Below the pieces are notes generated by a model that had not been told where the DNA came from, did no database searches, and worked only from the letters and a program-made list of their open reading frames with translations. Shown in pieces: positions 15,983 through 19,977 of a stretch of 64,000 nt of DNA; position 1 is the first letter of the stretch; every line of letters begins with the position of its first letter. Where the stretch lies: the NCBI GenBank assembly GCA_937135955.1, contig CAKZOB010000024.1, positions 1 through 64,000 on the forward strand, in the 5' to 3' direction. Both the position numbers and the translations under genes were made by a program. The DNA comes from an uncultured Anaerolineales bacterium. GTDB taxonomy: Bacteria > Chloroflexota > Anaerolineae > Aggregatilineales > Aggregatilineaceae.

Positions 15983-16083
15983 GATCGGACTCTCTCCCGT
16001 AGCACCCGAAGTATACCGCAGAAGCTGGCACCCGATTCGCCGGATCGCAGTGGGCATACCCTGAAATAGCTCATTGCGTCCAT

Positions 16084-16112
16084 TTGACACGCCTGTGCTC
16101 ACATGCGATAAT
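16084..16112 (+). promoter_or_regulatory. Strong promoter of the leader and AIR-synthase-like gene
   Basis: A perfect TTGACA (16084-16089), a 17 nt spacer and GATAAT (16107-16112). The start is expected near 16119, giving a leader of about 210 nt before the ATG at 16329. Confidence 0.8.
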
Positions 16113-16166
16113 CACCACACGTGCGGGGGATCATTCGCCTCGCGCCCTCCCATAGCCATCCCAATA

Positions 16167-16256
16167 AGAAGGAGGTGGTGTCAATGCACGATAGTAGTAC
16201 CATGCGCAGCGCTGTGACACCCCTCCTTCTGGTGAAGTAATCGGGTGTCACAGCGC
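16167..16256 (+). promoter_or_regulatory. Mutually exclusive RNA hairpins around the leader peptide
   Basis: Helix 1: 16167-16183, which includes the AAGGAGG site, pairs with 16215-16230 over 16 bp with one bulged T, sequestering the ribosome binding site. Helix 2: GCGCTGTGACACCC (16209-16222) pairs with GGGTGTCACAGCGC (16243-16256), a perfect 14 bp. The helices share 16215-16222 and cannot both form completely. A ribosome reaching the TAA at 16238 would disrupt both. These pairings are read directly from the sequence. Confidence 0.65.
16184..16240 (+). CDS. Leader peptide, 18 aa, in a structured 5' leader
   Basis: An ATG at 16184 preceded by AAGGAGG (16169-16175) at the ideal 8 nt distance encodes MHDSSTMRSAVTPLLLVK and a TAA. 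It has no homologue that I recognise. Its ribosome binding site and its own codons form the two arms of a long helix, so translation and RNA folding are physically linked. I infer a regulatory leader peptide rather than a functional protein. Confidence 0.6.
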   Translation: MHDSSTMRSAVTPLLLVK

Positions 16257-16266
16257 GCAAGACCGG

Positions 16267-16299
16267 GGTCCCCGAACGAGCTTCGGGGACCTGCCTTTT
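16267..16299 (+). terminator. Terminator-like hairpin (attenuator) upstream of the AIR-synthase-like gene
   Basis: GGTCCCCGAA (16267-16276) pairs perfectly with TTCGGGGACC (16282-16291), 10 bp with loop CGAGC, followed by TGCCTTTTC. It lies inside the leader, 30 nt before the structural gene's start codon, so it would act as an attenuator rather than a gene end. Confidence 0.6.
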
Positions 16300-16328
16300 C
16301 AGCGCCTGTCTCTGGTCACCAGACTGCC

Positions 16329-17330
16329 ATGTCCACTTTTCCTGTCGGAAAACTGCCGTCCGATATGTTGAGAGAACTGCTGAGCATATTGCCCGGCGGT
16401 CAACGTGTGGTGCTGGGGCCAGCGGTCGGCGAGGATGCGGCAGTCCTGGCTATGCCCAACTGCTACCTGGTGGTCAAGACCGATCCCATCACTTTTGCCA
16501 CCGACGCCATTGGCTGGTACGCCGTCCAGGTCTGTGCGAATGATATCGCCACGACTGGTGCGACTCCTTTGTGGTTTCTCGCCAGTATTCTGTTGCCCCC
16601 CGCACACGCGACGCCGGAGCTTGTCCGCCGCATCTTCGATCAGATCGCTGCCGCGTGTCGCGCTCTGGATGTCGGCGTGATCGGTGGACACACCGAGATC
16701 ACCGCAGACCTGGAACGTCCCATCGTCGTAGGATGCATGTTGGGCGAAGTAAGCCCCGATCGCCTGGTGCACACAGGCGGTGCACGCCCTGGCGACCTGA
16801 TCCTGCTCACCAAAGGTGTACCCATCGAAGCTGCGGCTATCATTGCCCGTGAGAAACGCGAGGAACTCCTGTCCCATTTCTCTGCTGATTTCCTTGACGA
16901 GTGTGCCCGTTTCCTGTACGACCCAGGCATTAGCGTGGTACGTGACGCTCAAATTGCGATGCAGGTGGGCGGCGTCAGCAGCATGCACGATCCTACCGAA
17001 GGGGGCTTACTCACCGCGCTGTGGGAACTGGCCGAAGCCGGCGGGTGTGCTCTCGAAGTATCGCTCTATGACTCGCCCGGACTGTGGTTGCCGAACGGTA
17101 GGAAGCTGTGCGAATTCTATGGGCTGGACCCAGCAGCAGCCATCGCGTCCGGTGCACTGCTGCTGACCGTTATTCCAGAGCAAGTATCCGCTTTGCTGCA
17201 AGCCTTCTGGCAGGCACAGCTTCCGATCTTCCCGATCGGTCGGGTAGTCGCAGGCCCGGCTGCCGTGAATGATCTCAGGAAAGGGCCCTTGCCCCGCCCC
17301 CAGCGAGACGAAATCGCTCGCCTCTTCTAA
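16329..17330 (+). CDS. AIR synthase-related protein (HypE-like)
   Basis: 333 residues of the PurM/HypE/SelD ATP-binding superfamily. N-terminal half: VGEDAAVL, then KTDPITFATD and CANDIATTGATPLWF, the usual metal/ATP-binding and dimer segments. C-terminal half: SMHDPTEGGLLTALWELAEAGG, the second conserved motif. True HypE ends in a cysteine that carries carbamoyl/cyano groups; this protein ends ARLF with no such cysteine, and no hydrogenase genes are near. The substrate is therefore unknown. The start at 16329 gives the family N-terminus. It is controlled by the attenuator-like leader described above. Confidence 0.82.
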   Translation: MSTFPVGKLPSDMLRELLSILPGGQRVVLGPAVGEDAAVLAMPNCYLVVKTDPITFATDAIGWYAVQVCANDIATTGATPLWFLASILLPPAHATPELVRRIFDQIAAACRALDVGVIGGHTEITADLERPIVVGCMLGEVSPDRLVHTGGARPGDLILLTKGVPIEAAAIIAREKREELLSHFSADFLDECARFLYDPGISVVRDAQIAMQVGGVSSMHDPTEGGLLTALWELAEAGGCALEVSLYDSPGLWLPNGRKLCEFYGLDPAAAIASGALLLTVIPEQVSALLQAFWQAQLPIFPIGRVVAGPAAVNDLRKGPLPRPQRDEIARLF

Positions 17331-17541: not shown

Positions 17542-19977
17542 ATGTTTCAGATGGATATCGAGGTCTTTGAGCAAGTGATGGTGTTCCTCGTCCTTGCTAT
17601 CGCCGGTGTGGCGCTTGGCTACGCCCTCTGGCTGCGCAACTTCATTATGTCCGCAGACAAGGGCAACGAAGAAATGCAGCGCCATTGGGGCCACATCCGC
17701 GATGGAGCGAATGCCTACTTGCGCACGCAGCTCAGAACTGTGGCTATTCTGATCGCCCTGTTGACGATTGCCATGTTCCTGAGCGTCTTCGTAGTCAAAC
17801 CCACCCCCGAAGCCAACGAGTATTTTGACGGCAATGAAGACACAGCTCGTCTGGTGATCGCCATTGCCCGTGCGCTGGCCTTCGTGATGGGTTCGTCCTT
17901 CTCGGCCATGGTAGGCTTTTTCGGCATGAACATGGCAGTGCAGGGCAATGTGCGTGTTGCCGCTGCCGCCGAACGGGGTGGCTACCAGGAAGCACTCAAG
18001 ATTGCCTACCGCTCCGGCACCATCACCGGTATGCTCACTGATGGGCTGGGCCTGTTTGGTGGCACGATGATCTTCATCATCTTCGGTAAGGCGTCTCCCG
18101 ATGTGCTCTTAGGTTTTGGTTTCGGCGGTACGCTTTTGGCCCTGTTCATGCGCGTGGGTGGCGGTATCTACACCAAGGCCGCGGATGTTGGCGCTGATCT
18201 GGTTGGCAAGGTCGAAGCCGGTATGGAGGAAGACGATCCGCGCAACGCGGCTGTGGTGGCCGACCTGGTGGGCGACAACGTGGGCGACTGCGCAGGCATG
18301 GCCGCCGACATCTTCGAGTCCTACGAAGTGACCATTGTCTCCAGCCTGATCCTGGGCCTGGCACTCACGGCTATCAATGGCGAACTGTACTGGATCGTGT
18401 TGCCGCTGTTGGTACGCGGCATTGGCGTCGTCAGTTCCATCGTGGGGACCTATGCGGTCTCGCTGTGGCGCGTGGACGATGCCGAAGAGGCCATGTACAA
18501 GAGCTACGAGGTATCCAGCGGCATCACCATTCTGTCCACCTTCCTGCTGGCCTGGCTCTATGCGGGGCAACTCTCCCTGGCGACGCTGGTAGCAGTCGGC
18601 GTGGCCCTGGCGGTCGCATTCAACCCGTTGACCTCCTACGCCACCAGCGCCAAGAGCAAACGCGTACAGACGATTTCGGCAGCCACTCGCTTCGGCCCGG
18701 CCTCGGTCATTCTGGAAGGTCTCTCGCTGGGCTACCTATCTAGCGTGTGGGCTTTGTTTGTCATCGTGGCCAGCCTGGCCGCTTCCATCCTGGTCTACAG
18801 CTACGAGTTCCCCAACGATCTCAAGCTGCCGGTAGTGCTGATCGGCCTGGTGTTGGCCGTCATCATGATCATCCGTGGCCGTATGCGCAATCACCTGGTG
18901 GAAGGTTTCTTCTCGGCCATGTGGATCATGGTGTTTGCCCTGTTCCTGGTCAGCATGCACGAGGTGCCGGAAGTCCATCGCTACAGCTACATCTTGTTTG
19001 GCGTGACGCTGATTGGTGTGGGTATGCTCTCTCACACGGGCAACAACGTGAGCATGGACACCTTCGGCCCTATCTCGGACAACGCCAACGGTATCGGTGA
19101 GCTTTCTGGCATGAGTCCCACGGCCCGCCAGATCATGGCCGACCTGGACGCTGCGGGCAACACCACCAAGGCTATCACCAAGGGCGTAGCCATCGGCTCG
19201 GCTGTGATTGCCGCTGTGTCGCTCTTTGGCAGCTTCTTCTCCGACATTCAGCGCGTCAAGCCCGACTTCGAGAAGATCGTCAACCTGGCCGACCCGGTAG
19301 TTTTTGTGGGTCTGCTGATCGGCGGTTCGTTGCCTCTGCTGTTCAGCGGCCTGCTGATCAAAGCGGTGAACCGCGCGGCCGGCCTGATCATGGCTGAAGT
19401 GCGCCGTCAACTGCGCGATCCGGAGATCGCGAGCGGGGCCAAGACGCCCGACTATGCTCAGGCGGTCACGATCTCCACACAGTCCGCTCAGATGGAACTG
19501 GTGCCGCTGGGCCTGATCGCCGTGCTCGCGCCGATCGCGGTAGGTTTCCTGCTCAAGGAACAGGCGCTCGGCGGGTTCCTGGCCGGTGTGATCCTGTCCG
19601 GCCAGTTGCTGGCCGTGTTCATGGCCAACGCAGGTGGCGCGTGGGACAATGCCAAGAAGTACGTGGAAGACGGTTACTTCGGTGGCAAAGGTAGCGAGAA
19701 TCACAAGGCCAGCGTTGTCGGCGACACAGTGGGCGATCCGCTCAAGGACACGGCTGGCCCTGCCCTCAACCCCATGATCAAAGTCATGAACCTGGTCGCG
19801 CTGATCGTGGCTCCGCTGGTCGTGGAATACGAAGGCTATAGCGCAGGTATCCTCATCGGCGTCGCCATTGCCATCGTGCTGATGGTCTGGGCCGTGCGCC
19901 GCAGCGATCGCGAAGATACCCTGGCGACTGAAGAAGTGGTGGAGCGCGTCACCGCCGACATGGTCTCGGCAGACTGA
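17542..19977 (+). CDS. hppA: Membrane-bound proton-translocating pyrophosphatase
   Basis: About 811 residues with roughly 16 membrane segments. It hydrolyses pyrophosphate and pumps H+ across the cytoplasmic membrane. Substrate-site motifs are visible: DVGADLVGKVE, DNVGDCAGMAADIFES and, near the C-terminus, GDTVGDPLKDTAGPALN. The sequence GNTTKAITKG carries Lys at the position where K+-dependent enzymes have Ala, which marks the K+-independent H+-pumping class. The ATG at 17542 follows an AGGAGGGG ribosome binding site. It has its own promoter and terminator. Confidence 0.96.
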   Translation: MFQMDIEVFEQVMVFLVLAIAGVALGYALWLRNFIMSADKGNEEMQRHWGHIRDGANAYLRTQLRTVAILIALLTIAMFLSVFVVKPTPEANEYFDGNEDTARLVIAIARALAFVMGSSFSAMVGFFGMNMAVQGNVRVAAAAERGGYQEALKIAYRSGTITGMLTDGLGLFGGTMIFIIFGKASPDVLLGFGFGGTLLALFMRVGGGIYTKAADVGADLVGKVEAGMEEDDPRNAAVVADLVGDNVGDCAGMAADIFESYEVTIVSSLILGLALTAINGELYWIVLPLLVRGIGVVSSIVGTYAVSLWRVDDAEEAMYKSYEVSSGITILSTFLLAWLYAGQLSLATLVAVGVALAVAFNPLTSYATSAKSKRVQTISAATRFGPASVILEGLSLGYLSSVWALFVIVASLAASILVYSYEFPNDLKLPVVLIGLVLAVIMIIRGRMRNHLVEGFFSAMWIMVFALFLVSMHEVPEVHRYSYILFGVTLIGVGMLSHTGNNVSMDTFGPISDNANGIGELSGMSPTARQIMADLDAAGNTTKAITKGVAIGSAVIAAVSLFGSFFSDIQRVKPDFEKIVNLADPVVFVGLLIGGSLPLLFSGLLIKAVNRAAGLIMAEVRRQLRDPEIASGAKTPDYAQAVTISTQSAQMELVPLGLIAVLAPIAVGFLLKEQALGGFLAGVILSGQLLAVFMANAGGAWDNAKKYVEDGYFGGKGSENHKASVVGDTVGDPLKDTAGPALNPMIKVMNLVALIVAPLVVEYEGYSAGILIGVAIAIVLMVWAVRRSDREDTLATEEVVERVTADMVSAD

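Follow-up and report, generated by a model that had tools for sequence, protein, structure and literature searches.

A candidate ribosome-gated small RNA gene of Chloroflexota with two helices competing for the interior of its short reading frame

Ribosome-dependent leader-peptide switches comprise transcription attenuators like trpL and translational attenuators like ermCL, in which the sequence of a short reading frame takes part in mutually exclusive hairpins and the ribosome can choose the fold. Dual-function small RNAs such as SgrS/SgrT, RNAIII/hld and SR1 combine a short frame with a structured RNA that has its own promoter and terminator and no linked gene. The 6S, tmRNA, SRP and RNase P RNAs are encoded by single-copy, broadly kept small RNA genes. 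Chloroflexi-1 (of Chloroflexus aggregans) and the pan motifs have been presented as structured RNA candidates from Chloroflexi (PMC2864571).

In this work we have analyzed an element located in a 64,000-nt stretch of DNA from an uncultured Anaerolineales bacterium (the window), which shares the above features of all these groups. Unlike the trpL- and ermCL-type switches, it has no conserved regulated gene, its terminator-like hairpin stays outside the helix competition and the ribosome site it masks serves its own frame. SgrS/SgrT, RNAIII/hld and SR1 keep the frame mostly apart from the regulatory segment, whereas the arms of the element are the ribosome site, the frame interior and the post-stop sequence. 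In contrast to Chloroflexi-1, the pan motifs and the housekeeping RNAs it has no counterpart in Rfam: no covariance match overlapping the element reached the gathering score in Rfam 15 (riboswitches and known small RNAs included), in agreement with an earlier sequence-only reading of this DNA which had assigned it to no known class, and no description of it was found in the literature searched.

The element is best read as a roughly 180-nt gene for a small transcript, belonging to an undescribed RNA family that is usually single-copy in Chloroflexota. Comparison among genomes establishes that the family exists and is usually single-copy, the conservation of promoter, frame and terminator-like hairpin, the exclusive covarying helices and the lack of a conserved downstream gene; from these we infer that the RNA would be expressed and translated, would fold in a defined order in the cell and may have an output in trans. 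It is probably an autonomous, ribosome-gated dual-function small RNA/mRNA with its own promoter, frame and terminator-like hairpin, and not an attenuator of the next gene; own promoter and terminator together with a short frame are the attributes of the dual-function class. A usually single-copy structured RNA gene present in much of a phylum and absent from Rfam suggests an unexamined housekeeping role, and interdependence of ribosome loading and RNA folding without a linked gene would put the attenuator principle to a different use.

Organization and occurrence of the element

The features of the locus are as follows (window coordinates).
16084-16112, plus strand: promoter TTGACA-17 nt-GATAAT from a sigma-70-like scan, with the predicted transcript start near 16119
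16155-16161, plus strand: conserved block GCCATCC (GCYATYY) 5' of the ribosome site, recognized in alignments
16167-16183, plus strand: arm A, strong Shine-Dalgarno sequence AGAAGGAGG followed by GGTGTCA, with 16 pairs to arm B and one bulge
16184-16240, plus strand: 18-codon frame MHDSSTMRSAVTPLLLVK with stop codon TAA, from open-frame reading across 156 elements
16209-16230, plus strand: arm B inside the frame, from pairing and covariation
16244-16256, plus strand: arm C GGTGTCACAGCGC, 3' of the stop codon, with compensatory changes in 13 of 13 B:C pairs
16267-16299, plus strand: hairpin D GGTCCCCGAA/TTCGGGGACC with tail TGCCTTTT, a terminator-like transcript end judged by stem and T-rich tail across copies
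16329-17330, plus strand: AIR-synthase-like protein (HypE/ThiL/SelD superfamily), a neighbour outside the RNA family that is the next gene in 20 of 151 copies

Most of this layout had been proposed in the sequence-only reading. The near-consensus promoter is the sole sigma-70-like site within 15990-16500 (TTGACA at 16084-16089, a 17-nt spacer and GATAAT at 16107-16112; 11 of 12 matches, with 0.2 such sites expected), and the 18-codon frame and its strong ribosome site (AGAAGGAGG, 16167-16175) are both in place. The proposed 16-bp pairing of A with B was borne out (16167-16183 with 16215-16230, 16 pairs, one bulged T), while the perfect 14-bp pairing of the second half of the frame with the sequence after its stop comprises 13 perfect pairs (16209-16221 with 16244-16256), or 14 if a flanking pair is included. 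Within arm B, GCGCTGTGACACC pairs with C, TGACACC plus CCTCCTTCT pairs with A, and the arm resembles the 3' tail of 16S rRNA. Of the GC-rich hairpin with a tail, the hairpin is present (stem-loop D, 16267-16291, followed by TGCCTTTT), but the tail in the window has too few T residues to be called a terminator by the scan; a clear T-run follows D in many relatives. The leader in the window is more stably folded than its dinucleotide shuffles (z = -4.4).

A covariance-model search of the class (model R1), the type of check suggested earlier, gave hits in 234 of 396 genomes, almost all of which carry a single copy; the copies are related, so that such counts are not independent. Model R2 had hits at E<=0.001 in 93 of 301 genomes across the phylum, a cut-off to be taken as approximate since the E-values of the models built here are rough, and gave strong scores in Chloroflexia-like families. 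None of the 26 genomes from other phyla contained a match above 25 bits, and therefore the phylum matches near 22-25 bits are not to be trusted. A DNA pattern derived from the leader matched many Anaerolineae, including members of the family of the window in which no close orthologue of the AIR-like gene was detected; its approximately 26 matches in other phyla, mainly one recurring Clostridia coding sequence, have no competing arm C and were judged to be due to chance. Orthologues of the next gene in the family of the window are preceded by the whole leader. The order to which the window belongs shows patchy presence: the element was found in 16 of 18 family members and in a few others, and in most families it was not found. 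The carriers include the cultured genus Ornatilinea and, as we take it, Chloroflexus aurantiacus and Roseiflexus RS-1, and occurrence in cultured genera makes the element directly testable.

Of 151 unique copies, 124 have a promoter with no more than two mismatches of 12, compared with 7 of 151 shuffled ones, and terminators consisting of a stem and a T-rich tail occur across the copies far above shuffled controls.

Two deviating forms have been noted. The f76 family (L164 and L170, near 1501-1593) carries a possibly homologous minimal form with a strong ribosome site, a 12-codon frame and a weak model score, in which the stop codon falls within the loop of the terminator hairpin, so that B:C itself would be the terminator. 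In L095 the frame and arm B are intact and arm C ends within a few bases, which looks like truncation or recent rearrangement.

Competition of arms A and C for arm B

Covariation was assessed in an alignment of 40 copies (A2) and in a larger one of 101 rows. Compensatory changes were found in all 13 B:C pairs in both alignments, with 93% of cells paired in the 40 rows and 94.8% in the 101 rows; sliding the partner by one column in A2 reduced the paired cells to about 20%, and the 101 rows contained 253 double-change cells versus 56 in shuffles. For A:B, 86% of cells in A2 are paired and columns covary, the invariance of A in this alignment being partly built in by the initial search pattern, which fixed most of that arm. 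Mutual exclusion of the two helices had been claimed from the window, and both are indeed kept by covariation in relatives. At the column triple A34-B83-C119, 19 rows have G-C-G and 9 have A-T-A, with P = 1.6e-5 for the A34-B83 association in Fisher's test, which ignores relatedness; in the aligned copies one base of B tracks two exclusive partners, in A and in C. Other classes have A = GGTGATGCCC (there including the start codon), B = GGGCATCACC and C = GGTGATGCCC, arms that differ in letters but keep their complementarity, so that the competition of A and C for B is retained.

One A:B register shared by all rows was rejected, the register shifting by one base between lineages, and per-sequence duplex energies were therefore used to assess A:B. 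For 148 sequences the mean values were -23.9 kcal/mol for A:B, -29.5 for B:C and -20.3 for A with the 16S tail, the last calculated with the general bacterial tail, because two sequence patterns for the exact 16S 3' tail of this genome gave no match. With swapped partners the means were -20.6 kcal/mol for A:B and -20.6 for B:C (n = 148). For transcripts truncated ahead of C, the predicted partner of the ribosome site is B (median 0.88), whereas in full-length transcripts A:B pairing falls to 0.01, C pairs with B and the D stem forms in nearly all folds.

The folding predictions suggest an order of events. Arms A and B would be transcribed first and form a hairpin masking the ribosome site; synthesis of C would then allow the more stable B:C hairpin to displace B from A. 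A translating ribosome would have to melt B, and on reaching the stop codon it would sit over C, yet, as the median distance from stop codon to D is 22 nt, it would presumably not cover D. Ribosome loading would probably determine the shape of the RNA, with A (the ribosome site) and C (the post-stop sequence) competing for a B that lies within the frame.

Freeing A from B may not be sufficient for full translation, since the predicted full-length folds commonly leave the ribosome site engaged with the 5' leader (mean 0.62). RNAalifold predicts a helix between the region of the 16155-16161 block and the ribosome site, and variation in the block is mostly C/U, which preserves possible pairing with the G residues of the ribosome site; the block is tentatively a third partner of arm A. 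The 5' leader was not retained as a firm third partner, the pairing being only modestly in excess of that of shuffled leaders (0.77 versus 0.68).

What the autonomous RNA might do has been considered in two ways, each of which we regard as possible, with the balance tilted against it. It may be a phylum-wide sensor of ribosome availability: an internal copy of the 16S tail would occupy the ribosome site, free 30S subunits would compete directly with the fold, and translation capacity would be reported by the shape of the RNA and by any action it then has in trans. We know of no free-standing regulator of this type without a linked gene. As a trans-acting small RNA, it would bind other mRNAs or 30S subunits through exposed CCUCC-like loops or through the ribosome-site-like arms A and C, translation setting which arm is exposed. 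The usual single copy, the own promoter and terminator and the lack of a linked gene suit such a role, as do the likeness of B to the 16S tail and the strong binding predicted between A and that tail. The loop of D bears CCTCCTC in one lineage, which also speaks for it, but CCTCC in the B:C loop is absent from Chloroflexia-like copies.

The lineage in question belongs to Anaerolineaceae (L063, L068, L076, L080, L090, L091 and L099) and has CCTCCTCTTTC in the D loop, a second sequence resembling the 16S tail.

The short frame and its peptide

The conservation check in relatives proposed earlier found the frame open in 156 of 156 elements read, besides the 13 of 13 compensated B:C pairs. ATG is its start codon in 153 elements and GTG in 3; most frames have 14-20 codons, and the stop, located between B and C, is TAG in 94, TAA in 56 and TGA in 6. 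The distance from ATG to the B motif is 24, 27, 30 or 33 nt in most rows. A frame open in all copies, together with the conserved start and stop and the very strong ribosome site and promoter, would also be expected if the element were a small-protein gene, the 14-20-residue peptide being the product and the helices just autoregulating its translation. The first half of the frame is under mild purifying constraint (dN/dS about 0.44), which leaves room for a peptide product, and the N-termini are alike across classes (DSS, SKR). Against this, arm B is read in different frames, as GTA GCA TCA CCT (VASP) in Anaerolineae and as GGC ATC ACC (GIT) in Chloroflexia-like copies, so that RNA pairing and not peptide sequence is conserved: half of the peptide varies where the nucleotides are kept. 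Serine is encoded by AGT or AGC at 296 of 323 N-terminal positions, which fits a constraint on nucleotides. We hold the small-protein explanation to be rather doubtful.

The listed leader peptides show no stalling signal in the sense of a run of one amino acid or a known arrest motif.

TGA is avoided as the stop of the short frame (6 of 156), while 37% of the long open frames at the same loci end in TGA.

Neighbouring genes

The sequence-only reading had taken the element for an attenuator of the AIR-synthase-like gene. The protein encoded at 16329-17330 is roughly equidistant from HypE, ThiL and SelD and reaches no NCBIfam cut-off. A leader frame that looks translated, competing helices and a terminator-like hairpin close upstream are all present and agree with that proposal, and an AIR-like gene follows in 20 of 151 unique copies from several families. 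In several linked copies the gene starts merely 14-20 nt past D, so that some read-through from the promoter of the element is likely there and an effect in cis is possible. As a general role, attenuation of the AIR-like gene was rejected on the strand and identity of the next gene: 131 of the 151 copies have no AIR-like neighbour, and strands taken from a simple open-frame caller place the next gene on the same strand in 72 and on the opposite strand in 74 of the 151 (71 and 74 for the upstream gene). Five element-carrying genomes of this family gave no close AIR orthologue. Since D has no arm in common with A, B or C, no anti-terminator is visible, and the weaker terminators looked for in AIR-linked copies were not found, D being no weaker there than elsewhere. 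Attenuation of this gene is accordingly an improbable explanation of the element. The recurrence of the AIR-like gene as neighbour in several families and the patchiness in the order of the window count against the autonomous reading, which we nevertheless prefer.

Among the features of a leader-peptide transcription attenuator, the translated-looking leader frame was found, whereas an anti-terminator sharing D, a conserved co-directional target and a stalling signal were not. In an ermC-type translational attenuator the switch hides the ribosome site of a downstream gene; here the hidden site belongs to the short frame itself. The idea of a riboswitch or other ligand sensor found no support, as the conserved positions are the ribosome site, the helices and the start codon, and a conserved target gene is absent.

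A chance structure or misread sequence without function may be set aside, given the 13 of 13 compensated pairs, the 234 of 396 genomes and the conserved promoter, frame and terminator. Judged from the relatives, in which every part is kept with compensatory changes, the whole element at 16084-16299 is confirmed as genuine and beyond chance.

Some further neighbours have been recorded. A gene for H+-pyrophosphatase (17542-19977 in the window) follows the element in the family, with or without the AIR-like gene between them. A genome from another family of the order has a 6S RNA gene (L116:184-362, minus strand, 68 bits) past the AIR-like gene, roughly 1.1 kb downstream from the element. A Herpetosiphon-like genome shows a sub-threshold match to 5S rRNA (L157:1737-1850, minus strand) just downstream of the element, and the contig ends soon after; this copy may adjoin an rRNA operon.
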